A DNA stretch of 64,000 nt, taken from Hysterangium stoloniferum. Its lineage: Eukaryota > Basidiomycota > Agaricomycetes > Hysterangiales > Hysterangiaceae. The notes beneath the pieces were generated by a model. It did no database searches. It saw only the letters and a list, made by a program, of their open reading frames with translations, and was not told where the DNA came from. The stretch's first letter is position 1. Each line of letters opens with the position of its first letter. A program made the translations under genes and the position numbers. Below, piece by piece: positions 5,212 to 59,706 of the stretch. The stretch is from the NCBI GenBank assembly GCA_015178975.1, contig WHVD01000043.1, forward strand, positions 310,001 through 374,000, read 5' to 3'.

Positions 5212-6006
5212 TCAAGTGCGTAAAATATAAGCACTCCCTGCACTATCAGTGGGGATCTCCTGGTTTTCGGTAGGTAATCCACTTGAAGACGAAACAACCG
5301 GCCTCGGCGCGGGACAAAAACGCGCAATGTGACCTTCGCTGTTGCATCTATAGCAATTCTTCGGCTGTCGCATATTTGGTGAGTCAACTTTCATTTTCAT
5401 GGCAATTTGACTCTCATTTTCTTTCCCCCCTTTTAGATGGCTTTCTTCTTCTACCAGCGCCACGGAAATTTCTTCGACTGTAAGTGATCCCACACGCTGC
5501 ATAAGAGCAGTTGCTACCGCACCAAATTCCGGAGCCAAACAATAGATGAGGACATCCGGCACATCCTCATCACGTAACTCGACTCCAATCGCTCGAAGCT
5601 GCGAAGCCAGAGTCAAAATGCCATGGACATATTCCATCACTGGATTTTTGACATCGTGCTGGTACATATAGAGCTGGCGTTTCAACGAAATCCGATTGGC
5701 CCGATTATTTGCCTGATAGATTTTTGCAAGCGCTTGCCATGCCTCTGGTCCAGTGGTGCAATCCCGAATATACGATTGTTGGCTTGACGCAATTGTCAAT
5801 CCAATTGCCGTGTAACCATCCTCCGAATGCTTTGCCCAATCCAAATACTCCTTGCTATTCTCATCCTTAGGTGCCTTTGTTCCACCATTAACAACACTCC
5901 ATGATCCAGCACGCCGCAAAACCATTGACAGTGAAAACTTCCATTCGTGGTAGTTATCACCCGAGAGTTTTGGGATACTCGCAAGTAAGGCGTTGATATT
6001 AGACAT
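5212..6006 (-). CDS. Copia-type Gag protein with zinc knuckle
   Basis: The sole protein of the 1431-bp element. I take the start at MSNINALLASIPKLSGDN, because the longer frame begins inside the LTR. The N-terminal part (GDNYHEWKFSLSMVLRRAG) and central YMYQHDVKNPVMEYVHGILT match the UBN2/DUF4219 capsid region of copia Gag. Near the C-terminus, CYRCNSEGHIARFC is a CX2CX4HX4C zinc knuckle that would bind RNA. Length, about 265 residues, is usual for such Gags. It would form the particle that packages element RNA in the cytoplasm. A close copy lies at 58668-59528. Confidence 0.85.
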   Translation of the reverse strand: MSNINALLASIPKLSGDNYHEWKFSLSMVLRRAGSWSVVNGGTKAPKDENSKEYLDWAKHSEDGYTAIGLTIASSQQSYIRDCTTGPEAWQALAKIYQANNRANRISLKRQLYMYQHDVKNPVMEYVHGILTLASQLRAIGVELRDEDVPDVLIYCLAPEFGAVATALMQRVGSLTVEEISVALVEEESHLKGGKENESQIAMKMKVDSPNMRQPKNCYRCNSEGHIARFCPAPRPVVSSSSGLPTENQEIPTDSAGSAYILRT

Positions 6007-7938
6007 AAGATGATGAGATAGTATTAGTGTGACTTTTAAAGCAACGGGGCGGGGCCCATAACCTGTTCGATGACAGCGTAAGGAAAACGGACAAGGTTTA
6101 TGTACAATGACTAAGCTACTGTAAAGTACGAAATAGCCGAGCGTAAAACGCATCAATGGCTTGCAATACAACGTAATCTAACACTTGGATGAGGTTGCAT
6201 CAAAATTTCTCATACAAATCGCCGGTTCTCGTGATCTCTCACTCATTTCCGGCCCTAGGTTTATCGTGGAAGCGATCTGCCGCGAGCGTCAACTATCTGT
6301 AGAGGAGCTCACGGCGATCAGAGGTTACTTAGAATTCTGGTTACAAGCGTACGTCGCGACTTCACATCATTTCATCTTTCCCACCAAAAGCATAACAGAC
6401 AAAGGGACCGGCGACTAATTCTCCCATTTATACGGCTTCTCGTGTGTTGCATCCACCAAGATACATGGTTTCGAGATTTTGCTGCAGCGGCATTGAGGGT
6501 TATATTGGACGACATAAACGTGCACATAGCGTCATTGACACTTCATCTTGATTTGGAGACATCAGGTTTACTGTATTCGAGTATTTCCTCCTTGCAAACT
6601 TTCTTCAACGACAGCACGCTTCTCACCGATCACATCAACCAGCTGAATGTGGTTTCTTCGTTCATTGGGCCCATCGTACGGTACGGTCACAATATTTTAC
6701 CGTTTACACGCCTATGAACCTTTCCTACCAGTCTGATTCTGACGCACCCGATTCCAGACCGGGATCTCCTGTGGTCTGGCGAAGGAATAATCGAGTTGGC
6801 TCGGAAGCTGATGGCTGGATCTTCCGAGGCCGAATCTGCATGTACCACAGTCCGCAGCCTGGATGCCATCGCCACGCTCGTTTCTCTTCTTCCGCATTGT
6901 GACATCATGCGCAGCTCGAGCAATGACCACTCCATCAGTTACGCGCTGCAGGATTTAGATTTGACCACACGTTCCTTCCTTTGTGTGGTCGCCACACCTG
7001 CCACTCGTGTGTCGGTGGAGCCTAATCAGACTACTATATCACTGTTGGAGGAACATGGTTGCTCTGACAAAGGTCTTGCATGACCCATTGGACACATTCC
7101 CCAATCATAATGGATACATCTCAACCAAACCAGCAGACCACCATCCCGCCCCCCTTTAATTAATTCAGTTTGCAACCAGATTTGCAAAAATGTACTAAGC
7201 TATATAGTTTGAGCCCATGTAAGAGCGCATATAGTCACTTCTTACCATCGCCGCGAACTCTGCAGTTTGTACTCATACTGTACACGCGTTGAATACATTT
7301 TGGGGCACTAGCCTTGGCCAGACTAACATCTGAATCATGATCGATACTTGGTGTAAATAAAATCTCATTGAATTTCTGAAAGATCTTCCCCATCGCCATT
7401 TCGATCCATGTTTTGTTCAGGCTGATCATACCTTTAGACCAGTGTTCAATCAACAAGATCCACGATCTTAAAACCGAGAGCCTTCACACCAAGCGAGTCA
7501 ATCTGTTGCGCGAATTCCTTAAACTAATTCTCTTCCATTGAAAACCTGACAATAAGGCAGTAATGAGAAATGGAGTTAATCACAATCTCTCGATAGAGAG
7601 AGTAGCTACCGTTCTTGAGAAATGTCCTTGGGAATATATCTTTCGTGGAACAATGGAGTGGCCAGTTGTAATGGAAAGCTTGTAATGTCCATCTATAGAT
7701 GGAGGTAACAATGATGAAGAACTGGGATTGGATGGACCAGAAGGCTCGTCACTGGTGGTGAGGTCAATGACATCGGCGCAGGGAGGGGGGACTACATACA
7801 TATTGGTAATTTCACTTAATTTCCGAGTTTGACCAACCCAACCTGGATACTGCACCGTCGCAAATGCCTGAAGCTTCCAATCACCCTTGCACCACCGACA
7901 TTCGGGTAATTTGGTGCATATATTGTTGTTGGATTACT

Positions 7939-26892: not shown

Positions 26893-27708
26893 ATGTCTGC
26901 TTTCAACGAGACAACTCTGGGGAATCGCGATGAGGCAACGGTTCAGACCTACCTTGAAGGCGTTGAGGAGCTACCACCCTTAGTTTCCCCAGGCGTATTG
27001 AGTTCAGAGCAACGGGACCAGATCATTAAGACGGGGATGAGAGAGATATTCAGGGAGAGGCTTCGAAAACGGTGGGGTTGTAACGAACCCGGCCATGATT
27101 TATGTTATCGGGCGCCTGATGACGAGCAGCACATAGAGCTATCTGCAAGCCATATAGAGGTCTGGGTTGATGAGTGGGTGAGTAAAGTAAAATGCAATTT
27201 CCATGCGATCGTTGTCACATGCGGCACATTTCAGTGTCAAGGAGAAGCGACCTGCCATGACCCACCCACTGTTGTTCAGATATCCACCAATACGACATCC
27301 AACCTCAGCCCGTATCATAGTCATGGCGAAGAGTGGGGAATGATCTCACGGAGTCTTGTGACATCTTCAAGTATTGAAATTGGCCCCGGGTATTACTGTG
27401 GAGCCGGTTTGGAAAGGGTTGGAATGAAAGTCCTCCAGAGTGCAAAGAAAGCTTCATTGATGGCAAAGTTAACAATATACGGGCAAATACTAAGTCCATT
27501 TTCTCGCGACAATGGTGCCTTGAGCAAGATTCTACACAAGCGTCTCACCCTGCCAAGATTGGGAATACTAATTCAAGAGTGTGTTGATTTAGCGAGGTAG
27601 GGATACCTCAGTGTCAATCATTGGATACACTCGAAATACTTATGTCTGAATCGTAGACCTACATGTTGAAGACAAAAGGCACCGCATATATGTGGCAGGG
27701 TCAACATA

Positions 27709-31269: not shown

Positions 31270-34200
31270 TTGCTCGAAAATGAGCAGCGCCTTCTTGCAT
31301 CTGATACCCAGCGTACTGCGCCTGTGGATGCCATCGCCCTTTCAACACAATCCGCTTCCCCGAAACGTCCTGTTGTTACCTGTAGCAACCCGAATTGCCG
31401 CAAACAGGGACACACGATCGCGTACTGTGTTTCAGCTGGGGGGGGGATGGCTGGCAAAAGCATCGAAGAAGGCAAAGCTGCCCGGCGCAGGGATCTGGAA
31501 GTTAAGAAATCCGGAAATTCTACACCTGCACCTGCAGGTAAGTTCCCCATCAGCATCACGGGTGCAAACGGTCAAGTCTTTACCGCATATATGGACACGC
31601 CCCTACCAAATGATGCAGCTTTCGCTGGTACCATGATTGAAGAGCCTGCCATGGTGATGACGCCTTCTGATCAGGCTGAATATGCTGGATGGATAGCCAC
31701 CGATGATAACCCACATGTCACCGTAAATTGGAACCTACATAGTTCTCCAGTGGGCACATCGGCACTGGCCACATCAGTGCTGGCCACATCGGCCCCTCCC
31801 CTTCTCGGCTCACCTCCCATTCCACACCCCTTCTGGCTTGATACAGGTGCCAGTATACATGTATCACCAGACCATACCGACTTTATCTCCTTATGCACCA
31901 TATCCCCACGCCCTGTCACAGGCCTGGGGGGGTCATCGGTCATGGCTATCGGATTGGGCGATGTTCGCCTTCGCATTGAGAATGGGACCCACATTATTCT
32001 CCGTGATGTTCTTTACATCCCTACTGCATCTGTTCGACTTATCTCTGTTAGGTGTATCACTAGAGATTCCAACGTCACTGCTCATTTCAGTCATTCCTCA
32101 TGCTGGCTCACGAGTCCTTCTGGTGCAACCATTACACAAGGCTCACTACTTCCCCACAGGAACTTATATTCCTTAACATTACAGTCTACTGCCTCTGACC
32201 AGGTTTTCTTCTCCCATGGTCATCCTGATCTTGCCACATGGCACCGTCGTTTGGGTCACGCGAATTATCAATCCATCCTGGATATGGTCAAAAATGGTCT
32301 CATCAAAGGTGTGCCACTCTCCACTCACCAGCATCCACCCAAGTGTGATTTTTGCATCCTCGGAAAGCAGACCAAAAATTCTGTACCCAAGGTGAGAGCA
32401 CAGGGGGATGGGCATAAGGCTACAAGGCGCTTGGAAAAGGTCTGGGTGGATTTGGCAGGTCCTAATGATGTTGCATCCCGCACAGGATCATTATATATTA
32501 TGAATATTATTGATGATTACTCACATTACCCCTGGTCAATCCCGCTAACCCATAAAAGTGATGCTTTTCCAGCGCTCCAGACCTGGGAACGTGCACGGGA
32601 GGTGGAGACTGGCCTGAAAGTTGGAGTGTACAGGACAGACAATGGCAAATTAAAAAGTAATCGAATGCAACAGTGGCTCGAGTCTCGTGGGACCCGGCAC
32701 GAATACACAGCACTTTATACATCTGTGCATATAGGCCGTGTCGAGCGCATACACCATACTTTAATGGGGAAGGCACGTACTATGCGTATATATGCTGGCT
32801 TACCTGCCCAATTTTGGGAGGAATTTTACCTTACTGCGACTCATGTACACGCAAAAACTACTACAGTTCAACTTCAGAAACGATCACCTTGGGAACTTTG
32901 GCATGGCCGGTCACCGGATGTCACTTATTTACGGGAGGCAGGGTGTTGGGCATTCGTCCTCATCCTCAGCAAACATAACCCCAAAGTATACGAGCGATCA
33001 ATCGAATGTATTCTTCTAGGATACGAACCCAACATGAAGGTGTATCGATGCTACGACCCAAAAACGAATTTGATTTATGTCTCTTACCACGTGCGATTCC
33101 TTGAAAGTCACGATGGCCACATTAGGCCAAGCCCGGGCTCTAATGGTACGTTACCACCACCGCACATCCCATTAACTCATGATATGAACCCCTCACCACC
33201 GCCGTTGGATGACTCTGAGCCGATCATTCCTACACCTAGTACCTCCAATGTGCCACCAGCTCTCCCTATCCCAGGTACCAATTCGATACCCCCTGTCCCT
33301 CCTGTCCCAGCACTCCCTGTGCCCACTGATACTGACATCCGTCGGTCCAATCGCATAGCCACGCGCATTGCAGATCGCCCCTCCCGGGTAGCTACTGCTG
33401 TCCAGGCCTCCATTGACAGTGCAGCCCATGTGCGTGCACAGAAAGAACAGCGTCGCCTTGCTCTTCAGCAATTGCATGCAGACGTTGCTGACATTCCCGA
33501 GGACACAGAGGAGCCGCGGGGGCTGGCCAAGTCCCATGAGGACGTATTAGCTGCGATCTCTAGTGGTTCAGTGCCCTATGAGATGGACCCACTTACCTGG
33601 GAGGAGGCCAGGGATTCACCTCATGGTGATGCTTGGCGTCTCAGCTACCAGGAGGAACTTGCATCGCTGAAAAGTATGGGAGTATACAGGTTAGTTCCAC
33701 TGTCTGATGTCCCCTCAGGCACCAAGATCCATAAGGGCAAGCCCGTTTTTCATGTAAAACGGAATGCCCTAGATGAGGTGACTCGGCGCAAGACTAGGCT
33801 GGTGTTTCGGGGGTATGAGCAGGTTCATGGCCGGGATTACACTAAAACGACCTCACCTACAGCTCGGATGGAGTCGTGGCGACTTCTCCTGCATATCGCA
33901 GCGCATTTTGGTTGGGATGCACAACAGATTGATGTCAAGACCGCTTTCCTATATGGCCTACTCCCTGACGATGAGACTCAATACATGTATCAACCAGCGG
34001 GCTTTGAAGAAGCAGGAAAGGAGTCTTGGGTTTGGCATCTTATCCGGGGTTTGTATGGCATGAAACAAGCTGGCCGCATCTGGAATCGGACCTTGCACGA
34101 CAAGATGGTGGAATGGGGATTCACACAATTGTCCAGTGAATCATGTATATATTACCGCCACACCTCACAGGGCACAATAATCGCTGCTGTCCATGTGGAC

Positions 34201-35160
34201 GATTTTTTGTCCATTGCATCCTCCCAGGCCGAGAATGAACGGTTCAAAGCACAGATGCGAGAAGCTTGGACCATTTCTGACCTTGGGGAAGTCAGTTTCG
34301 TTGTCGGTATTGCGGTTGAATGGGACCGGTCAAATCACACCGTTAAACTCTCCCAGACTGCACTTATCGATCGGATTATTTCCCAGTTTGGCCAGTCTGA
34401 CTCTTCTCCTCTTTCCATCCCCATGGTCCCTGGCCTGAAATTGCGGCGCGTCCTTCGATCTGCCCTTCCCCCAGATGATCAGGAGCACCTCTCTAAACTC
34501 CCATATCGCTCTCTCGTCGGGTCCCTCCTCTATTTAGCTATTTCCACCTGGCCCGACATCTGTTATGCTGTCCAGCAACTCTCCCAGTACCTTGACTGCT
34601 ACTCATACGAACACTGGAATGCTGCCGTTCGGGTCATACGCTACCTCAAAGGCACTCGGACCATGCAACTCCACCTTGGGGGCCCTTCCCCCATACAGCT
34701 GGTGGGTCACAGTGATTCGGATTGGGCCAACTGCCTCAACACGCGTAGGAGTGTGGGGGGGTTTGCATTCTCCTTGGGCTCTGGCGTCGTGTCTTGGAAT
34801 GCCCGAAAACAAAAAACAGTTGCTGCGTCTTCCTGCGAAGCCGAGTACATCGCAGCCTTCACTGCTGCAAAAGAAAATGCATGGTTGCGGTCAGTCTTTT
34901 CTGGTATTAACCTCCCTTTTAGGGACCCTACAGTAATCCATTGTGACAATAACGCCGCCATTTGCCTCTCAGAGGATCCACTGCTACACGATCGAGTCAA
35001 GCACATCGACATAAAATACCACTTTATTCGAGAATGTGTAGAGTCCGAAGCACTAAAACTCAAGTACATAAACACTAAGAACAACCTGGCTGACATATTC
35101 ACTAAGGCACTAGAGAGCCCACAATTTGTGCGACTTCGAGGACTCCTAGGCCTACAATAG
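31270..35160 (+). CDS. Copia element 2 Gag C-terminus and Pol polyprotein
   Basis: An open frame of 1296 codons with no ATG of its own at the left, since a nested LTR lies just upstream. In order: a zinc-knuckle-like CSNPNCRKQGHTIAYC (about residues 37-52, CX4CX4HX4C spacing); the protease site FWLDTGASIHVS (about 189-200); GAG-pre-integrase (TWHRRLGHANY, CDFCILGKQTK); the integrase core (VWVDLAG, YRTDNGK, then the Glu in VERIHHTLMGKA); reverse transcriptase (WDAQQIDVKTAFLYGLLPDD and the active-site variant HVDD); and RNase H (SDSDWANCLNTRRSVGGFAF, SSCEAEYIA, CDNNAAI). It would be cut by its own protease into the enzymes for reverse transcription and integration. Confidence 0.93.
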   Translation: MLENEQRLLASDTQRTAPVDAIALSTQSASPKRPVVTCSNPNCRKQGHTIAYCVSAGGGMAGKSIEEGKAARRRDLEVKKSGNSTPAPAGKFPISITGANGQVFTAYMDTPLPNDAAFAGTMIEEPAMVMTPSDQAEYAGWIATDDNPHVTVNWNLHSSPVGTSALATSVLATSAPPLLGSPPIPHPFWLDTGASIHVSPDHTDFISLCTISPRPVTGLGGSSVMAIGLGDVRLRIENGTHIILRDVLYIPTASVRLISVRCITRDSNVTAHFSHSSCWLTSPSGATITQGSLLPHRNLYSLTLQSTASDQVFFSHGHPDLATWHRRLGHANYQSILDMVKNGLIKGVPLSTHQHPPKCDFCILGKQTKNSVPKVRAQGDGHKATRRLEKVWVDLAGPNDVASRTGSLYIMNIIDDYSHYPWSIPLTHKSDAFPALQTWERAREVETGLKVGVYRTDNGKLKSNRMQQWLESRGTRHEYTALYTSVHIGRVERIHHTLMGKARTMRIYAGLPAQFWEEFYLTATHVHAKTTTVQLQKRSPWELWHGRSPDVTYLREAGCWAFVLILSKHNPKVYERSIECILLGYEPNMKVYRCYDPKTNLIYVSYHVRFLESHDGHIRPSPGSNGTLPPPHIPLTHDMNPSPPPLDDSEPIIPTPSTSNVPPALPIPGTNSIPPVPPVPALPVPTDTDIRRSNRIATRIADRPSRVATAVQASIDSAAHVRAQKEQRRLALQQLHADVADIPEDTEEPRGLAKSHEDVLAAISSGSVPYEMDPLTWEEARDSPHGDAWRLSYQEELASLKSMGVYRLVPLSDVPSGTKIHKGKPVFHVKRNALDEVTRRKTRLVFRGYEQVHGRDYTKTTSPTARMESWRLLLHIAAHFGWDAQQIDVKTAFLYGLLPDDETQYMYQPAGFEEAGKESWVWHLIRGLYGMKQAGRIWNRTLHDKMVEWGFTQLSSESCIYYRHTSQGTIIAAVHVDDFLSIASSQAENERFKAQMREAWTISDLGEVSFVVGIAVEWDRSNHTVKLSQTALIDRIISQFGQSDSSPLSIPMVPGLKLRRVLRSALPPDDQEHLSKLPYRSLVGSLLYLAISTWPDICYAVQQLSQYLDCYSYEHWNAAVRVIRYLKGTRTMQLHLGGPSPIQLVGHSDSDWANCLNTRRSVGGFAFSLGSGVVSWNARKQKTVAASSCEAEYIAAFTAAKENAWLRSVFSGINLPFRDPTVIHCDNNAAICLSEDPLLHDRVKHIDIKYHFIRECVESEALKLKYINTKNNLADIFTKALESPQFVRLRGLLGLQ

Positions 35161-42558: not shown

Positions 42559-45500
42559 ATGTCTGCTTTCAACGACACAACTCTGGGGAATCACGATGGG
42601 GCAAAGGGTCAGACCTACCTTGATGGGGTTTAGAAGCTACCACCCATAGTTTTCCTAGGTGTATTGAGTTCAGAGCAACGGGAGCAGATGATTAAGACGG
42701 GGATGAGACACATGTTTAGGGAGAAGCTCCGAAAACGATGGGTTTGTAACGAACCCGGCCATGATTTGTGTTATCGGGCTCCCGATGATGAGCAGCACAT
42801 ACAACTATCTGCAAATCATATAGAGGTCTGGGTTGACGAGTGGGTGAGTAAAGTAAAATGCTATTTTCATGTGATCTGTGTTATATGCGGCACATTTCAG
42901 TGTCAAGGAGAAACGACCTGCCATGACCCACCCACTGTTGTTCAGATATTCATCAATGCGACATCCAACCTCAGCCCGTATCATAGTCATGGCGAGGACT
43001 GGGGAATGATATCACCAAGTCTTGTGACATCTTCAAGTGTTGAAATTGGCCCCGGGCATTATTGTGGAGTCGGTTTAGAAAGGGTTGCGATTAAAATCCT
43101 CCACAGTGCAAAGAAAGCTTCTCTGATCGCAAAGCTGACAATATACGGGCAAATAATGAGTCAATTGTCTCAAGACAATGGTGCCTTGAGCAAGATTGTA
43201 CACAAGCGTCTCACCCTGTCAAGATTGGGAAGACTAGTTCAAGAGAGCGTTGATTTAATGAGGTAGGGATACCTCAGCATCAATCATTGGATACGCTCGA
43301 AATACCTAAGTCTGAGTTGTAGACCTACATACCCGCCTCAAATTGGGAGAAGAGCGAGGAGGATTTTAGATGATTTCCAGGTCTCTTCCTTTCACATGCA
43401 GCAGAGTAACAATGGCCATACTTCCCAACTTATGCTATCTTTGGCTTCGGCCTCTAAGTGGTGTCCCGGTGCCTATTGGCCAGCTAGAGAGGCGTCAACT
43501 GCGATTACATCATCACTTTTTAGTCAAGTCACCGCTGCACACCAATTTGGATGAGGTTGCATCAACATTTATCATAAAAATCGCCGGTTATAATGATCTC
43601 TCACCCATTTTCGGCCTTGCGAGTATCGTGGAAGGGATCTGCCACGTGCGTCAACTATCTGTAGAGGAGCTTACGGCGATCAGAGGTTGCTTTGAATTCT
43701 GGTTACAACCGTGCGTCGCGACTTCACAAGATGTCCTCTTTCCCACCAAAAGCATTACAGAGAAAGTCACCGGCGACCAATTCCCCTATCTGCAGATCCT
43801 ATACCGATTCTCGTGTGTTGCATCCACCAAGATGCATCGTTTCGAGATTTTGGTGCAGCGGCATTGAGGGTTATATTGGACGACATAACCGTGCACATAG
43901 CGTCATTGACACTTCATCTTGATTTGGAGACATCAAATTTACTGTATTGGAGTATTTTCTCCTTGCAAACTTTTTTCAACGACACCACGCTTCTCACCGA
44001 TCATATCAACAAGCTGAATGTCGTCTCTTCGCTCATTGGGCCCATCGTGCCGTACGTTCACATTGTTTTACCTTCAGCACCGTCTTACATCCGCCTATGA
44101 AACCTTCCTACCAGTCTGACTCTGACGCACATGAATCCAAGTCGGGATCTCCTGGATTCTGGTGAGCGCATAATCGCTTTGACTCTGAAACTGAAAGCTG
44201 GATATTCCCACCCCGAATCCACGTGTACCACAGTGCGCTGCCTCGATACCATCGCCATTCTCCTTTTCTCTTTCCACATTGTGGCATAATGCGCAGCTCG
44301 ACCAATGACGAATATATTAGTTACCACCTTGAGCGTTTGTGTTTCACCGTGCGTTCCTGCCTTTGTTTCGCCATGACACCTTCCACTCGTGTGGGTCTAA
44401 TTAGGCGCCCATATGAGTGTTGGGGAAACACGGCTGCCCTGACAAAGGTCTTGCACCATTGATTGGACACACTTCCTAGTCCTTTCTCTTTGATTATGCC
44501 GACACATATAAACCAACCCAGGAGGACCCCAATTGCGTCGCCTTTGATCCAACCCACTTTGTAGTCGGGGTTCCAGATGTTATAAAGATATATGACTTGA
44601 GCCGATGTAAGAACGCATATAGTCACTTTGTATTGTCCCCGCGAGTTCTTCAGCCGTCCCCATACGTGTTTTAAATACATCTGAAGGCACTAGTCATTCC
44701 TGGACCAACCTCCGATTGAAGATATTATTGAAGTCTGAGAAAGCCCGTCTCCATTTCGATGCATATGCCGTTCAGGCTCATGCTACCTTCACTCCAGTGT
44801 TCAATAGACTCGATCCATGATCTTATAACCGACAACCTTCACACCGTGTGAGGAACTATTGGGCGAATTCCTTAAACTAATTCTACTTCATTCGAAAATT
44901 GACAACAAAGCTGGTAGAGATCGTAAGATATAAGAGCGCATACAGTAGCTTTTCACCCTCGGGGCGAGCGTTGCAGGTTCCACGCGTTTATGGCCATACA
45001 TTTGTTGAATACACTTGCGGACACCACCATTGGGTAGACTGATATCCTATTTATAAACGACAATCATTTCAAACAGAACGGGGATTTGAGAGTTGTATGA
45101 AGTTATACAATTTGACCTAATTTAATGGCAAATATAGTCACTTGTGATTAAAGCTGCGAGGTTCTCACCACTGGTGTTGAATATATTGCGAGGACTGACC
45201 ATGACGGGAGTCACATCGGATTTACTAGCCAATCATCATGTTCGACTGATCTCATTTCGAGTAGTCGCGAAACAGCCACTTGATTCAATCTAATATTAAA
45301 GGGGGTATCGACTACATCCGCGGACCTCTTGCACGTTAGTTGTCGCCACCTGTTTCCTATGCATAGTTGCCACACCTTTCACTGGTGTGTTGGTGCGTCG
45401 ACGATTCGAGTTACATCTCCGCTTTCCGGAATATAACGCCTCGAAGATAACTATGAGGCTTCCAGACCGTTGCATCAAACACAATGTTGGTGAGTTGGTC

Positions 45501-47055: not shown

Positions 47056-50050
47056 ATGTCTGCTTTCAACGAGACAACTCTGGGGAATCACGATGAGGCA
47101 ACGGTTCAGACCTGCCTTGAAGGCGCTGAGGAGCTACCACCCTTAGTTTCCCCAGGTGTATTGAGTTCAGAGCAACGGGACGAGATCATTAAGACGGGGA
47201 TGAGAGAGATATTCAGGGAGAAGCTTCGAGACCGATGGAGTTGTAACGAACCCGGCCATGATTTATGTTATCGGGCCCCTGATGACGACCAGCACATAGA
47301 GTTATCTGCAACCCACATAGAGGCCTGGGTTGACGAGTGGGTGAGTAAAGTAAAATACTATTTCCATGTGATCTCTGTGACATGCGGCACATTTCAGTGT
47401 CAAGGAGAAACGACCTGCCATGACCCACCCACTATTGTTCAGATATCCACCGATGTGACATCCAACCTCAGCCCGTATCATAGTCATGGTGAGGACTGGG
47501 GAATGATCTCATGGAGTCTTGTGACATCTTCAAGTATTGAAATTGGCCCCGGGTATTACTGTGGAGTCGGTTTGGATAGGGTCGGGATGAAAATCCTCCA
47601 CAGTGCAAAGAAAGCTTTGCTGATGGCAAAGCTGACATTATACGGGCGAATAATAAGTCCATTTTCTCTCGACAACGGTGCCTTGAGCAAGATTCTACAC
47701 AAGCGTCTCACTCTGCCAAGATTGGGAATACTAATTCAAGAGTGTGTTGATTTAGCGAGGTAGGGATACCTCAGTGTCAATCATTGGATACACTCGAAAT
47801 ACTTATGTCTGAATCGTAGACCTACATACCCGCCTCAAATTCGGAGCAGAGCGAGCAGGATTTTGAATCGTTCCCTTGTGTCTTCACTTCGCATGCAGCA
47901 GAGTAGCAAAGGCTCTTACCAACTTATGCTATCTTTGTCTTCGGCCTTCTATTACTTCCCCGGTGTCTATTGGCCAGCTGGAAATGCGTCAACTGCGATT
48001 ACGTCATCACTTTACAACGTTTTAGTCAAGTTACCGCTGCACACCAACTTGGATGAGGTTGCATCAACATTTGTTATACAAATCGCCGGTTATCATGATT
48101 TCTCAAGCACTTTCGGCCTTTGGCATATCGTGGAAGCGATCTGCCGCGTTCGTCAACTATCTGTAGAGGAGCTCACGGCGATCAGAGGTTACTTTGAAAT
48201 CTGGTTACAAACGTGTGTCGCGACATGACACCATTTCATGCAGCCCACTAATAGCCTGACAGACAAAGTTACCGGCGACTTATTTCCCAATCTGAACATC
48301 TTATACGGCTTCTTGTGTGTTGCATCCACCAAGATGCATGGTTTCGGGATTTTGGTGCAGCGGCATTGAGGGTTATATTGGACGACATAAACGTGCACAT
48401 AGCGTCATTGACAGTTCATCTTGATTTGGAGGCATCACGTTTACTGTATTGGAGTGTTGACTCCTTGGAAATTTTCTTCAACGACAGCACGCTTCTCACC
48501 GATCACATCAACGAGGTTAATGTCGTTTATTCGTTCATTGGGCCCATCGTCCGGTACGTTCACGATATTTTACCTACCTGCACCGTCTTACATCCGCCTA
48601 TGAACCTTTCCTACCAGTCTGATTCTGACGCACCCGATTCCAGACCTGCATCTCCTGTGGTCTGGCAAAGGAATAATCGAGTTGGCTCGGAAGCTGATAG
48701 CTGGATCTTCCGAGCCCGAATCTGCATGTACCACAGTACGCAGCCTGGATGCCATCACCTTGCTCGTATCTCTCCTTCCACATTGTGACACAATGCGCGG
48801 CTTGAGCAATGACGAATCCATCAGTTACGCGCTTGAGGGTTTAAATTTGACCACACGCTCCTTCCTTTGCCTGGTCGCCACACCTTCCACTCGTGTGTCG
48901 GTAGGGTCTAATTAGACCTCCATATATCAGTGTTGGAGGAACATTGTTGCCCTGACAATGGTCTTGCATCAATTGGATACACTTCCTATTCATTTATCTT
49001 CAATTATACCGACACATCTGAACCAAACCAGGAGGAGCACAATCCTGTCCTCCTTTAATTAATTAATTTTGGAACGAGATTTGAAAAAACGTATTATATA
49101 GCTTGAGCCAATGTAAGAGCGCATATAGTCACTTTTGCCATCGCCTCGAACACTGCAGCTTGTACTAGTACATGCGTTGAATACATTTTGGGGCACTAGC
49201 CTTGGCCAGACCAACATCCCAATAATTAACGACACTTGTTTTAAATAAAATATCAATAGAGGTCTGAAAAATGGGTCCCTCGTCGCCATTTCGATGCATG
49301 TCTCGTTCAGGCTGACCATACCTTCAGACCAGTGCAATGTTCAATACAAGATCCACGATCTTAAAACCGAGTGCCTTCACACCAAGGTAGTCGATCTGTT
49401 GCGCGAATTCCTGAAATTAATGCTCTTCCATTAAAAACTTGACAATACAGCTGCCATAGGTCCATCAAATATAAGAGCGCATACAGTCACTTTTCATCAT
49501 TGCCGTGAGCTCTGCATGTTGCACGCATTGATCCCATACATGCATTGAATACACTTGGGGGCAACCACCCGTGGTTAAATTAACATCCCATTTATAAATG
49601 ACAATAATTTCAAACAGAACGCGGACTCGAGAGTTGTATCGAACTACATAATTTGACAAAATGTAAAAGCGAAAATAGTCACTTGTAATGATCGCTGCGA
49701 GGTTCTCTAGATTGGTGTTAGATATATTCCAAGGACCACCCGTCGTTGAAATCACATCGCATATTTAGCGAGAACAATTTCAATAGAATTCCACTAGGAC
49801 GTCTCAAAGAAGGTGGTCCCACCCTTATTCTCATGTCACTTATTTGGGAGAACAGGAAGTCAGGCCAACCCAACGTAGAACACCATGATCAAGACACCGA
49901 CACTTCTTCACATGTTGCGAGCTTTCACCTTGGATAATAAGAAAAGTAGCTGGTGGTCATTTCAGGTGGAATCACCTATTAACTAAGAGCTGAAGAATAC
50001 CACGACGGCTGTAAGGTTGTCGAGTGACCTCATTCGGTCGGTACAGACAG
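47056..50050 (+). CDS. Family B gene, copy 4 (reference copy)
   Basis: Best uninterrupted copy; function unknown. Exon 1 is 47056-47340 (MSAFNETTLGNHDEATVQ to VDEW), intron 47341-47397 (57 nt, no stop in frame), exon 2 47398-47759, intron 47760-47819 and exon 3 47820-48228, where an in-frame TGA follows TCVAT. Later exons: DFGAAALRVILDDINVHIAS, the intron near 48554-48615, SDSDAPDSRPASPVVW, SSEPESACTTVRSLDAITLL, FLCLVATPSTRVSVGSN and the tandem modules (about 49090-49790), ending in a TPTLLHM-type segment. Exon 1 has a Cys/His cluster (WSCNEPGHDLCY) and exon 2 CQGETTCHDPP; together they resemble an uncharacterised domain of agaric proteins, from memory. Exon 3 and the end look decayed; convergent with family C copy 4. 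Confidence 0.55.
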
Positions 50051-51419: not shown

Positions 51420-52813
51420 GGACCCATAGTCAAGTCACCGCTGCACACCAACTTGGATGAGGTTGCATCGACAGTTATCATACACATCACCCGTTGTCTA
51501 TCATAATTTCATGATAATGAACCCATTATCGACCTTGCGATAGTGGAGGTGATTTGCCACGTACGTCAGCTGTCTGTAGTGGAGCTCACTGCGATTAAAT
51601 GTTGCATTGAGTTGTGGGTTCTACAACTGTGTGTTGCCAGATCACAAATTTATATTCCGCTTAGAAAAACCAGAATAGAGAAAATTGTCAAAAAGTAGAT
51701 GTTTGGTATAAATATCATGTACGGCTTCTTGTGTGTTGTATCCACCAAGATGCATGGTTTCGAGATATTGCTGGAGCCGTGTCCAAGTGCATAGTGAACG
51801 ACGTAAAAATGAATATGGCGTCATTGATACGTCATATTGATTTGGGAGCATCATATTCATTGTGTCAGAGTATCGACTGGAAATCTTCTTCGACGACAAC
51901 ACACTTCTCGCCGATCACCTCAATGAGTTGATTGTGGTTTCTGCGTTCATTTATCCCAACGTACGGTACGTTCACAATATTTTGCCTTTAATCACTGTCT
52001 TTGCATCCGCCCATGAAACCTTTCTACCAGTGCGATTCTGACCCACACGAATCCAAGTTGGGATCTCCTGGATTCTGGTGAGCGCATAATCGCTTTGACT
52101 TTGAAACTGATAGCTGGGTATTCACCCCGAATCAGCGTCTATCACAGTGCGCTGAACCAGGAGGAGCCCAATTGCGCCGGCCTTTCTTCAACCCACTTTG
52201 CAGCCAGTTGCAGATGTTATAAAGCTATATGATTTGAGCTGATGTAAGAACGCATATAGTCACTTTGTATTGTCCCAGCGAGTTCTGCAGTAAATAGATT
52301 TGAGGGCACCAGTCATTCCTGGACTAACCTCCGAATGAACAACACTTGTTTAATTAAGATATTATCGAAGGTCTGAGAAAGGCCCCCCCGTCTCCATTTC
52401 TATGCATGTGTCATTCAGTCTCATGCTACCTTCACACCGTGCGGAGCTGTTCGGCAAATTCCTTAAACTAATTCTACTTCGACAATCATTTCAAACAGAA
52501 CGCGGATTTGAGAGTTGTATGGAGTTATACAATTTGACTCAATTTAATGGCGAAGATAGCCACCTGTGATGATAGCTGCGAGGTTCTCACCACAGGTGTT
52601 GAATATTTTGTGAGCACTGACCATGGCGGGAGTCACATAGGATTTAATAGCCAATTGTCATGTTCGACTGATTTCATTTCGAGTAGTCGTGAAACAGCCA
52701 CTTGAGTCAATCTAATATTAAAGAGGGCATCGACTAGATCCGTGGGCCTCTTGCATGTTAATTGTGACCACCTGTTCCTTCCTATAGTCGCCACACCTTT
52801 CACTGCTGTGTTG
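51420..52813 (+). pseudogene. Family B fragment, truncated by the AT-rich island
   Basis: Starts in exon 3 (tcaagtcaccgctgcacacc), then CCIHQDAWFRDIAGAVSKCI and NMASLIRHIDLGASYSLCQS, the intron near 51968-52029, the SDSD-type exon, a shortened module region and the start of the C-terminal exon (cacacctttcactgctgtgt). It stops at about 52813, where composition changes sharply. It is more diverged from the other copies than they are from each other, and several internal parts are missing. Confidence 0.55.
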
Positions 52814-53019
52814 GTAAATCCTGAAAATAGAAAAGGTTGGATGGTAATAGCTACAACCCTACTGAATAATTATGGTAAGAAGACAACTGAAATTTGGGTA
52901 AATTATTGAGGTAAAAGATCCATTAAGATTAACTGGGGGCTGGGCCCCTAAGCATATGTCACCGCTACTACCCTTTATTAATTTTTAATCTTTATTATGG
53001 GATTTTAAAGGATTTTTAG

Positions 53020-53098
53020 ATTACTTTTAAAAAGAGGATTTATGGGAAATAGGTTAGTTGAAATTACTTTTAAAAATAGGATTTATGGGAAATAGGTT
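53020..53098. repeat. Direct repeat, two 37-bp copies
   Basis: attacttttaaaaa...gggaaataggtt occurs at 53020-53056 and 53063-53098 with one or two differences (43-bp period), just beyond the 3' end of the small ORF. Confidence 0.85.
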
Positions 53099-53117
53099 TA
53101 AATATTGTAGTAATATT

Positions 53118-53429
53118 TTAGGGATCTTCAGTTATTCTTACATATTCAACTAATTTCTCCACTACCTCATCATCTATATTTACCTTGGAAAATAATTTAT
53201 GTTCTAGATCTTTTCCAATATTAAGAAGGAAGAATATAACATCACTACCACAAGATTCCTCATTAAGTTTTGAAGAACCTTTCTTGACAAGTTTGATATT
53301 AAGTTCTACAACTGCTACAAGGATCTTTTTCATTTTAAGATCTAGTGACAATGATAAGACTACTATCTCACATATATTATTTATATGTTGTCCATTGAGG
53401 TTAGTGATATTGGTCTCAAGGAGATCCAT
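53118..53429 (-). CDS. Small protein of unknown function, 103 codons
   Basis: Starts MDLLETNITNLNGQHINNIC and ends VEKLVEYVRITEDP. It lies 31 bp beyond the stop of the 511-codon ORF on the same strand, so the two could be co-transcribed. It has no recognisable motif; the C-terminal third is acidic and probably helical (DDEVVEKLVEYV). The middle has LVAVVELNIKLVKKG. Its AT-rich composition matches the neighbour and differs from the host backbone. A partner of the larger protein is a guess based only on position. Confidence 0.55.
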   Translation of the reverse strand: MDLLETNITNLNGQHINNICEIVVLSLSLDLKMKKILVAVVELNIKLVKKGSSKLNEESCGSDVIFFLLNIGKDLEHKLFSKVNIDDEVVEKLVEYVRITEDP

Positions 53430-53460
53430 TCTGGTACAGAAGTAGTAGACTGAACTTTTT

Positions 53461-54996
53461 TCATTTTATATGTATATCTTTCTGTCCATGTCTTTTTACT
53501 ATTCTACCAGTTCTTATATAAGTCTTATCTTTCATATCCTTTACAGCATTTTGTAAGGATTCTCCACACCTTACCTTTAGTACTTCTGAATTTTTATCTA
53601 AGACTTCTATAACAGTGCAATTCTTTCCCCTATATAAAAGTTGACCTTTTGATATAACTTGATATTTTGAATTTTCTTTAAGAATTGAGTATCCTGCCTT
53701 ATAACTAGATACCCTCAAATCACTCACCTCTTCTAAATTCTTACTAATTTTATGAAGTGGGACAAGGGGAGCTGATTTTTTAGTTATACGAGTATCTACC
53801 CAACCAAGCTTTACTCCTTTGTAATCCACAAGTCCTATATCACTTGGTGAAAATGAACTCTCAATCCTAGGATAGAGTCCTCCTTTAGGACCAGGTATAA
53901 GTGTAATCCCCTTTTGTGACCTTTTGTATTCCTCTACCATGGTTATCCCATCATCAACCCTAACAAGTTTGGTAGTATTTCCATTAAAACTATAGTTAGA
54001 AACTAATTGAATTATATCTTCCTTATTTACATTATTTTGGAAGCCTCCTTGGATCTTTCCTGTTAAAGAATTCCACCAATGGCAATATACAAAAAACTTT
54101 CTATCTTTTAAGTAAACCATTATTGTTGATTTGGAATAGATGCTATCTACAAGTGCTCTCCACTGCTCTTCAAAGGAACTTCTATAGAATCTACATCCAT
54201 TAAAATTATTTCTAATATTAATAAAGTTGTCTATATACCATGATTTTGAAAATACTTTGTCACCATAAAACTTAACTTCAATCCTTGTCATTCCCACATC
54301 TTTTAATCTTTCTAGTGATTGTGACATTGACTCAGTAGGATCAACATATAAATTGTGGATTCTAGATCCTAAAGTAGTCATCACATCACAGCTTTCTAGC
54401 ATTTGTACAAATTTGTTATATACTTTGATCTTACATGAGTGATCTTCATTATAAAAGGATATACAATTATCTCCAACCTTTTTTCTATCATCTATAATAT
54501 CTTCTTTTCTTATTCCAAGATTTAATATATGCTTAAGAACATCTTTTCTAGTAGTAACATAGGATATATCTTGGGAGATATCTATATCATGTAATATAAT
54601 TTCATCACAAATGGTTTCTCTTAGGAATTTTATTATATTTTTGATGGGTACCTCAGATAATGAAATTTTATAAGAAAAGTAAGGAGTATTTGTAGGTGCA
54701 ATATCATTATTCTTGAGAGTATCTGAGTGTAGTGACTTGATCTTAAAGGAAAGTGAGAAATATACTTTACATTTTCCATATATATTATTTCTAAAGTCTC
54801 CTCCAATAGACCATAGAATTATATTATCACAGAAAATATGTGAAGTATTAGCAGATTCAAAAGATAGTCTAATGGCTTCTAAAGGATTGTGGTATTTAGT
54901 ATCCAGAACATCAGGTATACTGAACTCTTTTATAATATCAATACATTCTTTGAGTGCCTCATTTGCCATGGAAGACCACAATAGAAGTACTCTCAT
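53461..54996 (-). CDS. Intact 511-codon ORF, possible rolling-circle replication initiator
   Basis: The ATG at 54969 (MANEALKECIDIIKEF) has better context than the first at 54996. Motifs in order: DIDISQD (residues 137-143), FYNEDHS (181-187) followed by KVYNKFVQMLES (191-202), and MTRIEVKFYG (236-245). In plasmid and phage initiators of the Rep_trans class one finds an aspartate-rich RxDxxxD-like strand, then the nicking Tyr about ten residues before a YxK...E block, then an RxE strand. By that comparison Tyr182 would be the nicking residue. No HUH motif is visible. The C-terminal half has WNSLTGKIQGG and GWVDTRI and matches nothing I know. The function is a hypothesis; that the frame is open is certain. 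Confidence 0.55.
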   Translation of the reverse strand: MRVLLLWSSMANEALKECIDIIKEFSIPDVLDTKYHNPLEAIRLSFESANTSHIFCDNIILWSIGGDFRNNIYGKCKVYFSLSFKIKSLHSDTLKNNDIAPTNTPYFSYKISLSEVPIKNIIKFLRETICDEIILHDIDISQDISYVTTRKDVLKHILNLGIRKEDIIDDRKKVGDNCISFYNEDHSCKIKVYNKFVQMLESCDVMTTLGSRIHNLYVDPTESMSQSLERLKDVGMTRIEVKFYGDKVFSKSWYIDNFINIRNNFNGCRFYRSSFEEQWRALVDSIYSKSTIMVYLKDRKFFVYCHWWNSLTGKIQGGFQNNVNKEDIIQLVSNYSFNGNTTKLVRVDDGITMVEEYKRSQKGITLIPGPKGGLYPRIESSFSPSDIGLVDYKGVKLGWVDTRITKKSAPLVPLHKISKNLEEVSDLRVSSYKAGYSILKENSKYQVISKGQLLYRGKNCTVIEVLDKNSEVLKVRCGESLQNAVKDMKDKTYIRTGRIVKRHGQKDIHIK

Positions 54997-55244
54997 TACA
55001 TTTTTTCAATTTGCAAATCAAGACCTTCATTAAGGAGGGTGTTTATAATTACTATAACCTCAAATATTTACTAATAAAAGTCTTATTTTTACAAAACTCC
55101 ATCTTTAAATAGTGATATCTATTCTGAAACAATTATATCATCAAAAAACAACCATCAGAAATAGTTCTCCATATTACATCTTATACAACCCATAGTTATT
55201 TAACAAATTCCATTGTATATAATTTCCTTCCTTTTACAGATGCC

Positions 55245-55480
55245 TACTAATACTTTTATTAGTACTTTGTTTTTTAAAAGTTGTAATGAAGTTATTTCCA
55301 TGTAAAATATGTAAAATATTATTGGAAATTTTTCATACCACAGCTGTCTTTATTAAGTAAAACCCCCTATATATTCTGGGTATGTTGAATCAAGTAGAAA
55401 TCTGTTTAGATTAACAGATCCATTCCGAAGTAATACATATGTATTTAGAGGTGCCAATGATATACATATGTATGGAATGG
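55245..55480. other. Hairpin cluster upstream of the 511-codon ORF
   Basis: Three inverted repeats: tactaata/tattagta with a 4-nt loop (55245-55264); atctgtt/aacagat with a 6-nt loop (55400-55419); and ccattcc...atacatatgtat paired with atacatatgtatggaatgg (55420-55480). AT-rich DNA forms small palindromes by chance, but the third is long. It could be a replication origin, a terminator or an element end. Confidence 0.55.
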
Positions 55481-55704
55481 ACTATCTAAAGGTATCTATT
55501 TTTTAAAAGTATTAGTGTTTCAAACTACTAATTTTTTTTATTGTCTACTTGTGTCCAGAAAGATTCATTAGTTTGTAATGTATGAGAGAGTTTAAAACTT
55601 TTTGAAAATTTTAAAAACCAAATTATGTTTGAATCACATCCCAGATGTTTAAATGACCTTTAGAGTATATTAGGATTTGGTATACTTAATAGTTTTCAGA
55701 TATC

Positions 55705-56246
55705 CTCCTAAGGGGACCAAAGATGATGGCATTACTTACAAGTCAAGCAATGAAATCGAAATAGAGATCTGTTGATTCAGATTATGCAAATCGGGACGAT
55801 GCACTATCAATTGGCAGTTACGTTGTATTAATTAATGGAGGATGCGTCGCTTGGAGCTGAAAGAAGCAGCGAACCGTGGCATTATCCACAACCGAGGCCG
55901 AATATATTGCCTTAACCGAAGGAGCCAAAGAATTGACTTGGTTGCGGAAATTACTTACCGATTTAGGGTTTGATATCAGCAATGACCCAACAACTATGAA
56001 ATCAGATAATCTAGGCGCAATTTCACTTGCCCATGACGCAACATTTCACACGTGTACAAAGCATATCAAAGTTGCTTATCATTTCATTCGCGAGAAAGTG
56101 GTCTCTAACGAGGCATCACTTACATACACATTCAGTCAAAAGAAAACCCGGTGGATATTATGACGAAAGGGCTGGACTTAAACCAGCATAACTATTTAAA
56201 GAAGAAATTGGGATTTTATTAATAGGGATATCTCATTGAGGGGGAG
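55705..56246 (+). mobile_element. Copia relic, RNase H end
   Basis: The translated region shows TKDDGITYKSS-type sequence, then TVALSTTEAEYIALTEGAKE, LTWLRKLLTDLGFD and HIKVAYHFIREKV, the typical end of a copia RNase H domain. It differs from copia elements 1 and 2. A polypurine tract, ttgagggggag, precedes the LTR. Everything upstream of the RNase H is absent; the AT-rich island lies there instead. A fossil with several breaks. Confidence 0.85.
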
Positions 56247-58255: not shown

Positions 58256-59706
58256 TGTTCGATGACAGCATAAGGAAAATGGACAAGGTTTTATTTACGA
58301 TGACTAAGCTACTGTAAAGTACGAAATAGCCGAGCATAAAATGCATCAATGGCTTGCAATACAACGTATTCTAACATGCCCACTTTGCAAGTCATTAAAG
58401 TGTGCAGTAAGACCATACACACGAAAAAACAAGAAATAAACCAATTTTAACCCAAAAAATATTGCGCCCACTCGACGCAAAACCCATCCGAAAATTGACA
58501 CGAAAATTGACACGAAAACCCGCTGCGCCCACTAGATGCAGAATCCGCTCGAAATTTTTGAGAAACCCGCTGCGCCCACTAGACGCAATACCCATCTGGT
58601 ACATTTGGCGTCGAACCGAACCTCAGAGCATCCTCGCTCCTAGAACGCATTCCCCCAACCTCCCAGATTACAAACAAATGCCGGACCTTGGAGCTCTACT
58701 CACAACTCCTAGTCCACGTGATAATTTCAAGTGTGTAAAATATATGTAAGCACTCATCCCTGCACTATCAGTGGGGATCTCCTGGTTTTCGGTAGGTAAT
58801 CCACTTGAAGACGAAACAACTGGCCTCGGCGCGGGACAAAAACGCGCAATGTGACCTTCGCCGTTGCATCTATAGCAATTCTTCGGCTGTCGCATATTTG
58901 GTGAGTCAACTTTCATTTTCATGGCAATTTGACTCTCATTTTCTTTCCGCCCTTTTAGATGGCTTTCTTCTTCTACCAGCGCCGTGGAAATTTCTTCGAC
59001 TGTAAGTGATCCCACACGCTGCATAAGAGCAGTTGCTACCGCACCAAATTCTGGAGCCAAACAATAGATGAGGACATCCGGCACATCCTCATCACGTAAC
59101 TCGACTCCAATCGCTCGAAGCTGTGAAGCCAGAGTCAAAATGCCATGGACATATTCCATCACTGGATTTTTGACATCATGCTGGTACATATAGAGCTGGC
59201 ATTTCAACGAAATCCGATTGGCCCAATTATTTGCCTGATAGATTTTTGCAAGTGCTTGCCATGCCTCTGGTCCAGTGGTGCAATCCCGAATATACGATTG
59301 TTGGCTTGATGCGATTGTCAATCCAATTGCCGTGTAACCATCCTCTGAATGCTTTGCCCAATCCAAATACTCCTTGCTATTCTCATCCTTAGGTGCTTTT
59401 GTTCCACCATTAACAACACTCCATGATCCAGCATGCCGCAAAACCATTGACAGTGAAAACTTCCATTCGTGGTAGTTATCACCCGAGAGTTTTGGGATAC
59501 TTGCAAGTAAGGCGTTGATATTAGACATAAGATGATGAGATAGTATTAGTGTGACTTTTAAAGCAACAGGGCGGGGCCCATAACCTGTTCGATGACAGCG
59601 TAAGGAAAACGGACAAGGTTTTATTTATGATGACTAAGCTACTGTAAAGTATGAAATAGCTGAGCGTAAAATGCATCAATGGCTTGCAATACAACGTATT
59701 CTAACA
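58256..59706 (-). mobile_element. Gag-only LTR retroelement (TR-GAG type), copy 2
   Basis: 1451 bp with 121-bp LTRs (58256-58376 and 59586-59706) and the target duplication ataca (58251-58255 and 59707-59711) in family B exon 3. The primer-binding site GGTTATGGGCCC lies at 59574-59585 on the minus strand. Organisation is as in 4753-6183. By eye the two LTRs differ at six sites, all of them C/T or G/A changes at CpG, so this copy is older or more strongly methylated than copy 1. The gag frame is open over its main domains. Confidence 0.9.
58668..59528 (-). CDS. Copia-type Gag of the gag-only element, copy 2
   Basis: MSNINALLASIPKLSGDNYH, WQALAKIYQANNWANRISLK and YMYQHDVKNPVMEYVHGILT form the capsid region; CYRCNGEGHIARFC is the CX2CX4HX4C zinc knuckle. 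Nearly identical to the copy at 5212-6006 apart from its C-terminal tail. No enzyme domain follows. It probably acts in packaging element RNA, using enzymes supplied by another copia element with the same primer-binding site. Confidence 0.85.
   Translation of the reverse strand: MSNINALLASIPKLSGDNYHEWKFSLSMVLRHAGSWSVVNGGTKAPKDENSKEYLDWAKHSEDGYTAIGLTIASSQQSYIRDCTTGPEAWQALAKIYQANNWANRISLKCQLYMYQHDVKNPVMEYVHGILTLASQLRAIGVELRDEDVPDVLIYCLAPEFGAVATALMQRVGSLTVEEISTALVEEESHLKGRKENESQIAMKMKVDSPNMRQPKNCYRCNGEGHIARFCPAPRPVVSSSSGLPTENQEIPTDSAGMSAYIYFTHLKLSRGLGVVSRAPRSGICL

Follow-up and report, generated by a model that had tools for sequence, protein, structure and literature searches.

The DNA analysed here is a stretch of 64,000 nucleotides from the fungus Hysterangium stoloniferum (contig WHVD01000043.1 of assembly GCA_015178975.1, positions 310,001 to 374,000 of the forward strand), referred to below as the window. 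A preliminary description of this stretch had drawn attention to an AT-rich island with an open reading frame (ORF) that might encode a rolling-circle initiator. We interpret this block (52811–55708, minus strand) as the truncated right half of a composite-like DNA transposon in which two long terminal direct repeats (LTDRs) enclose a set of genes, LTDR-genes-LTDR, and place the probability of this interpretation at about 0.85. It is carried by the architecture of fuller copies in the genome, by their ends, by 3-bp duplications around both composites and solo LTDRs, by empty sites, and by purifying selection on the gene for a protein of 511 amino acids (aa).

The block differs in composition from its surroundings, as originally reported, with a GC content of 0.294 at 52811–55709 versus 0.447 in the remaining window. 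Its two limits are the inner edge of an inverted-repeat arm and the outer end of the right LTDR, and it shares 96.1% identity with the right half of the fuller copy L012 (L numbers designate the loci of copies). The right LTDR (55034–55708, minus strand) is a 675-bp unit with the ends GGAGGGTGT...GATATCCTCC, and is flanked by TAA (55709–55711), the presumed target-site duplication, given the 3-bp duplications at other copies. The left TAA partner is absent from the window because the left half of the element was lost, and no trace of that half was found elsewhere in the window. The intact frame of the 511-aa protein (53461–54996, minus strand) was confirmed, the longest open frame being 514 codons, whereas 300 mononucleotide shuffles averaged 80 and reached at most 134. 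The second ORF, of 103 aa (ORF D; 53118–53429, minus strand), does begin 31 bp downstream and is retained by fuller copies. The block also holds one arm (about 286 bp; 52811–53095, minus strand) of an internal inverted repeat of which both arms are present in L010, L011, L012, L015, L017 and others; the other arm and the spacer are missing from the window copy. An upstream hairpin, as had been noted, is present within the LTDR (55405–55490, plus strand), approximately 410 to 490 bp 5′ of the start of the 511-aa ORF, with z = −5.5 in a single-strand DNA fold and none of 200 shuffles equally stable. The left break lies at approximately 52811, where the alignment piece starts in 11 of the 20 loci around copies, and the terminus-reaching alignment pieces end on the right at 55705–55718. 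The 2.9-kb block is therefore real as described, but it represents only part of a larger element, which is repeated in the genome and truncated here.

The search of the whole genome (111 Mb, 554 contigs) for further copies, proposed in the preliminary description as a way of defining the ends, made the ends of the element definable. With the 511-aa protein as the query, 58 matches were obtained at 41 to 100% identity, of which eight loci are near full length (seven stop-free) and the remainder are mostly fragments. The same genome holds 42 Zn_clus matches, compared with zero in 14 control genomes, in keeping with a fungal source. Twenty 10-kb regions around copies were used to study the layout; ten were complete enough to read, and the other ten are fragments or rearranged. 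The layout was identical in all ten readable copies (L010–L013, L015, L017, L019, L020, L021, and L027), here called family 1, some of which are truncated or interrupted, with the transposase of L021 located just beyond the fetched stretch. From left to right, it consists of an LTDR, a transposase with a DDE_Tnp_4 domain and a chromodomain (451 aa), an ORF of 159 to 167 aa (in some copies), a nuclease-like ORF of 203 to 207 aa, an ORF of 111 to 112 aa, the inverted-repeat arms, the 103-aa ORF, the 511-aa ORF, and an LTDR in the same direction as the first. The arms measure approximately 290 bp around a spacer of 110 to 130 bp, L013 and L020 carrying other arms, and the complete element is approximately 6.4 to 7 kb long.

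Inverted ends (GGAGG...CCTCC) bound each LTDR separately, and the full terminal sequences vary somewhat in diverged copies. With up to 2 mismatches, 440 left and 823 right termini were counted across the genome. From 1100 first-look LTDR candidates, 20 were fetched out of the 40 best-scored matches, and the 19 that were readable measured 674 to 675 bp. Identical 3-bp flanks were found in 17 of these 19, the duplication being ATA, TAA or TTA in 12 of the 17 and ATT in one. The 19 solo LTDRs differ on average by 1.0% (171 pairs), which reflects a recent spread of that subset only, since the best matches were chosen. The outer ends were checked in ten family-1 composites, seven of which were readable on both sides (L015, L017, and L027 are missing one end), and the outer 3-bp flanks match in six of the seven (L010, L011, L012, L013, L020, and L021). 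Moreover, empty sites were found for both composites tested: with up to 3 mismatches, the joined flanks of L012 match 134 times and those of L029, which belongs to a second family, 313 times. These matches include exact ones, and the backward-pattern control gave 0. The whole LTDR-genes-LTDR unit was therefore inserted as one piece. The insertion sites of both composites are in repeated sequence that is gypsy retrotransposon-like by its ORFs.

The transposase, used as a query, also finds relatives at approximately 40 to 50% identity. The second family is known from one copy examined, L029, in which 620-bp direct repeats with the ends GGAGGATAG...TTATCCTCC, of the same kind as those of family 1, differ from each other at 4 of 620 positions and are flanked by a TGG/TGG duplication. 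Its left terminus occurs 335 times within 2 mismatches. L029 encodes a 467-aa DDE-chromodomain protein that is 50% identical to the family-1 transposase, a 163-aa relative of the 159-aa ORF, and a repetitive ORF of 394 aa (L029 2749–3933). The last has a charged, coiled-coil-like start and NNTDED repeats, and gave no significant match in the family scans.

The family-1 transposase matches DDE_Tnp_4 with an E value of 4.9e-10 (39.7 bits, against a Pfam cut-off of 24.8), and its C-terminal chromodomain (Chromo, 2.1e-6) is likewise over the Pfam cut-off, as are both matches of the family-2 transposase (DDE_Tnp_4, 2.2e-7 and 31.1 bits; Chromo, 3.9e-12). The catalytic residues were seen by eye as IDGHD, LDGGY, and KIEATFGEL. 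The C/DxxH motif of Kolobok, located between the second D and the last E, is absent from both transposases. The 207-aa ORF carries the signature IPDFVV...YLIVENKR and is a probable PD-(D/E)XK nuclease, and no Pfam match to a His-Me finger nuclease was found among the ORFs scanned of both families. Together, the DDE_Tnp_4 transposase and the 3-bp duplications point to a PHIS-type (PIF/Harbinger-type) element, under which it is provisionally filed here, and one that would be KolobokP-like in its working. For the 103-aa ORF, no family match was found in the Pfam scan; ORFs C and D were compared as candidate paralogues and rejected as such (BLAST E value of 0.38; hhalign, 0.2%).

Several observations weigh against this interpretation. 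Two of the 19 readable solo LTDRs have non-matching flanks, the flanks of composite L019 differ (CTT/TAT), and the duplications are neither ANT, as in Pangu, nor strictly TWA. The nuclease call combines a motif with a sub-threshold Pfam match to Tn7_TnsA-like_N (0.038), and a Myb/SANT partner protein gave no Pfam match among the other ORFs scanned. The 511-aa gene is fragmentary or contains stops in many of its copies, and neither this gene nor the nuclease-like gene was found in L029, the sole family-2 copy examined, so these two genes may not be required for the architecture. Finally, no circle and no (LTDR-INT)n-LTDR tandem multimer, INT being the internal region, was seen in the 20 ten-kb regions around copies; the circular route considered below is therefore inferred only.

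The two LTDRs of an element resemble each other closely. Within-element differences range from 0.1 to 1.6% in L010, L011, L012, L017, and L020, with more than 500 compared bases each, whereas LTDRs from different loci differ by 0.1 to 15.7%. In all five elements with more than 500 comparable bases, the left LTDR has the right LTDR of the same element as its nearest relative in the set; the L013 pair shows 0 differences over only 67 comparable bases, and the count excludes the L014 palindrome, which has two identical halves. Because the nearest relative is an LTDR's own partner, the pair is homogenized, since repeats that merely travelled together would cluster by side across elements, left LTDRs together and right LTDRs together. 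In the cycle that we propose, the transposase would cut at the GGAGG ends. Cutting at the outermost two ends would move the whole element, and cutting at both ends of one LTDR would move a solo LTDR. Homogenization would arise most simply if one LTDR were copied to both ends in every cycle, through a one-LTDR circle (the LTDR plus the internal genes), its concatemer, or recombination between repeats; gene conversion or unequal crossing-over would homogenize the LTDR pair as well. Circles are discussed as one route for KolobokP in the available part of its description (Kojima and Bao 2022, PMC9587614).

The conservation of the 511-aa protein was assessed by a crude, uncorrected count of nonsynonymous and synonymous differences (pN/pS) among eight loci, one of them with a stop. 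Of the 28 pairs, 24 had a pS of at least 0.05, and in these the ratio was 0.20 to 0.41; in the four close pairs it was 0.32 to 0.97. The low values indicate that purifying selection acted on the protein during the spread of the element. The gene is thus a conserved accessory gene, and its product most likely assists the DNA-processing cycle.

It had been suggested that this protein is a Rep_trans-type initiator with Tyr182 as the nicking residue, which neither hidden Markov model (HMM) searches nor profile-profile comparison supported. The residues quoted at the time (DIDISQD, FYNEDHS, VYNK, and TRIE) are all found in the protein, and the motif order resembles by eye that of the Rep_trans protein of phage phiSMA9; the likeness to this RstA-type member of PF02486 consists of a few motifs in order, with no statistical similarity. 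No Rep family was found for the 511-aa protein in the Pfam, NCBIfam, and PHROGs scans, and no significant match of any kind in these or among PDB sequences, phages or plasmids; PF02486 had no match across the genome at an E value of ≤1. The profile-profile check that had been proposed was done with hhalign against a 15-sequence alignment made from the phiSMA9 protein and its relatives, which holds only RstA-like members, all eight of those tested (of 15) exceeding the PF02486 cut-off. The local probability was 0.2 to 0.4% and lower in global mode, from a shallow query (effective number of sequences, Neff, of 1.1) and a target with no Gram-positive Rep_trans proteins. For residues 125–275 the score was 14.9; in 100 column shuffles the median was 12.9, the 95% point was 19.7, and the highest score was 21.9. 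As a positive control, all seven left-out members reached at least 99.86%, these being nearer kin than the hypothesis needs. These results exclude membership of Rep_trans at the detectable range, an exclusion that does not extend to remote kinship.

AlphaFold models of the 511-aa protein were too poor for a judgement of the fold, with a predicted local distance difference test (pLDDT) score of 35.4 for the whole protein and 47.8 for residues 98–322, and a PDB fold search with the latter poor model gave no match at an E value of ≤0.001. A viral fold search with the same model matched A0A811A921 (a 1289-aa unnamed protein; E value of 3.2e-4), and neither fold search was relied on. Among sequence candidates, the phage match H5 (E value of 6) was judged to be chance, given its HTH_36 domain and O-like relatives; Tfb5, ribosomal protein S4, TNFAIP2, uridylate kinase, ERCC4, and others were weak and under cut-offs where any exist; and the Rep of phage Cf1c appeared unlike Rep_trans and was unused.

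The 511-aa protein could nevertheless be an initiator of the rolling-circle or HUH-like kind that has diverged very far. It would nick the LTDR, perhaps at the hairpin, and copy a one-LTDR circle into concatemers, out of which LTDR-INT-LTDR units would then be cut by the transposase. The strand-like motif order shared by eye with the phiSMA9 protein would fit this proposal, as would the purifying selection and the LTDR hairpin upstream of the gene, whose arm motif recurs in 18 of 20 single-LTDR loci and in seven of the nine family-1 composite LTDRs checked. A one-LTDR intermediate would also account for the LTDR pairing. We consider the proposal unlikely in view of the missing HMM and profile-profile signal and of fold models too poor to lend support. 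Furthermore, L029 shares the layout without the 511-aa gene, and its family-2 LTDR lacks the hairpin motif. Nor did phages, plasmids, viral contigs or prokaryote contigs yield a confirmed relative of the protein, both sets of contigs being scanned for it by two short peptide patterns; the viral contigs held no confirmed relative of the transposase or nuclease-like protein either. Less probable still is the fuller scheme in which the circle of LTDR plus genes copies itself into concatemers with the 511-aa protein as the initiator, and the PHIS transposase inserts LTDR-genes-LTDR units or solo LTDRs from them.

Of the three options first offered for the block, the transposon stood, being multicopy with defined ends, duplications, a transposase, and empty sites, and the plasmid and the virus-like replicon did not. 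An integrated replicon of either kind, run by a Rep_trans initiator, would explain a compact AT-rich block of several genes with an open frame. It is strongly disfavoured by the precise ends, the 3-bp duplications, the empty sites, the internal DDE transposase, the hundreds of further LTDR termini, and the negative Rep_trans tests. It is similarly very improbable that the element derives from a long terminal repeat (LTR) retrotransposon with captured genes and that the LTDRs are true LTRs. Terminal direct repeats that are near-identical within each element, with many further copies of the repeat, recall such elements; LTR elements, however, have TG...CA ends and 4- to 6-bp duplications, in contrast to GGAGG...CCTCC and 3 bp. 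In addition, the ORFs listed inside the elements include no reverse transcriptase or gag, and a DDE_Tnp_4 transposase is found there instead.

Since the LTDR is solo at many sites, two independent insertions of miniature inverted-repeat transposable elements could by chance flank unrelated genes. For both composites with empty sites this coincidence is refuted, and for the rest it is barely plausible: order and orientation are constant in the ten fuller family-1 copies, the outer duplications match in six of seven, each element's LTDRs pair with one another, and the design recurs in a second family. An assembly artefact or contaminant can practically be dismissed, for although a 4.55-kb palindrome close to the end of contig C441 (L014 41–9901; 99.96%, flanking DNA included) has two neighbouring copies as its halves, probably one copy doubled by assembly, copies lie on many contigs with differing flanks, and the host sequence of the two tested composites occurs elsewhere in the genome without them.

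Variation was also observed inside the element. By eye, L016 and L017 carry the inter-arm spacer in the opposite orientation to that of seven other copies, as if recombination between the arms had flipped it, and L013 and L020 have a different spacer. The transposase genes of L011, L012, and L013 are nearly identical (100% after rounding), and the nuclease-like protein of L012 shares only 65 to 66% identity with those of L011 and L013. In this ORF the middle is strongly divergent and the ends are nearly identical in the three copies, which suggests cassette exchange. Internal modules of the element are thus shuffled as well. In L009, an LTDR in the opposite direction interrupts the 103-aa ORF.

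Elsewhere in the window, the earlier statement that nearly all else is decayed was overstated, given that a 1296-codon copia-like pol frame, named by eye and with about 50 to 53% GC over most of its length, is open at 31270–35160 (plus strand). By eye, the right flank of the block (55712–56163, plus strand) resembles part of a copia RNase H (ALSTTEAEYIAL); the window copy therefore probably lies in a copia element. An ORF of 200 to 235 aa (CNEPGHDLCYRAPDD...) is present in three copies (26893–27600, 42664–43266, and 47056–47763, plus strand), and a pair of closely similar gag-like ORFs, each with a CCHC-like motif, was recognized by eye at 5212–6171 and 58668–59528 (minus strand).

Among known systems, which are compared here through the available parts of the cited papers, the closest layout is that of KolobokP. 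It is likewise LTDR-INT-LTDR. Its LTDRs, of approximately 450 or 660 bp, each bear short inverted ends, the termini are RR...YY, solo LTDRs flanked by short duplications are numerous, and an accessory nuclease is encoded beside a DDD/E transposase (PMC9587614). It differs in belonging to a Kolobok lineage of animals, in which the C/DxxH motif is present and the nuclease is of the His-Me finger type (PMC9587614), whereas the present element is in a fungal genome, combines DDE_Tnp_4 with a chromodomain, lacks C/DxxH, has more genes, makes 3-bp duplications, and showed no multimers in 20 loci. The PHIS groups (PIF/Harbinger, Pangu, Nuwa, and PHISTA) share the DDE_Tnp_4-type transposase and, in several of them, 3-bp duplications (PMC4482050; PMC12730594), and Pangu ends also start with GG (PMC4482050). 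PHIS families are described with two or three proteins and inverted ends, and the available descriptions do not mention LTDRs, a chromodomain or a nuclease like those of the present element (PMC4482050; PMC12730594). In the same parts, a Myb/SANT second protein is a canonical feature of PIF/Harbinger and Nuwa and is unreported for Pangu (PMC4482050; PMC12730594), for which the target duplication is ANT (PMC4482050). In bacterial composite transposons and TIME-COMP, paired short elements with inverted ends can likewise mobilize a core; these differ in being bacterial and derived from Tn3, and in lacking their own transposase gene (PMC4133298; PMC13367494).

KolobokP is presented, in the part of its description available, as unlike other DNA transposons owing to its long terminal direct repeats (PMC9587614), and it was the only composite-like eukaryotic element among the literature matches listed. 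These matches, with Repbase and most subscription papers outside their scope, included no composite-like or LTDR-bearing Harbinger or PHIS element, and nothing relevant among the 10 of 64 matches listed on rolling-circle Reps together with fungal transposons.

The element of H. stoloniferum is thus an LTDR design with a PHIS-type transposase, in two families of a fungal genome, and has the composite-like architecture known from KolobokP. If the initiator-circle proposal were true, plasmid-like replication and DDE transposition would be joined in one eukaryotic element that keeps LTR-like ends. The tight pairing of the repeats makes directly testable how the layout survives despite independently mobile repeats. 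The same design in two PHIS-type families suggests that composite-like DNA transposons can arise repeatedly and persist.

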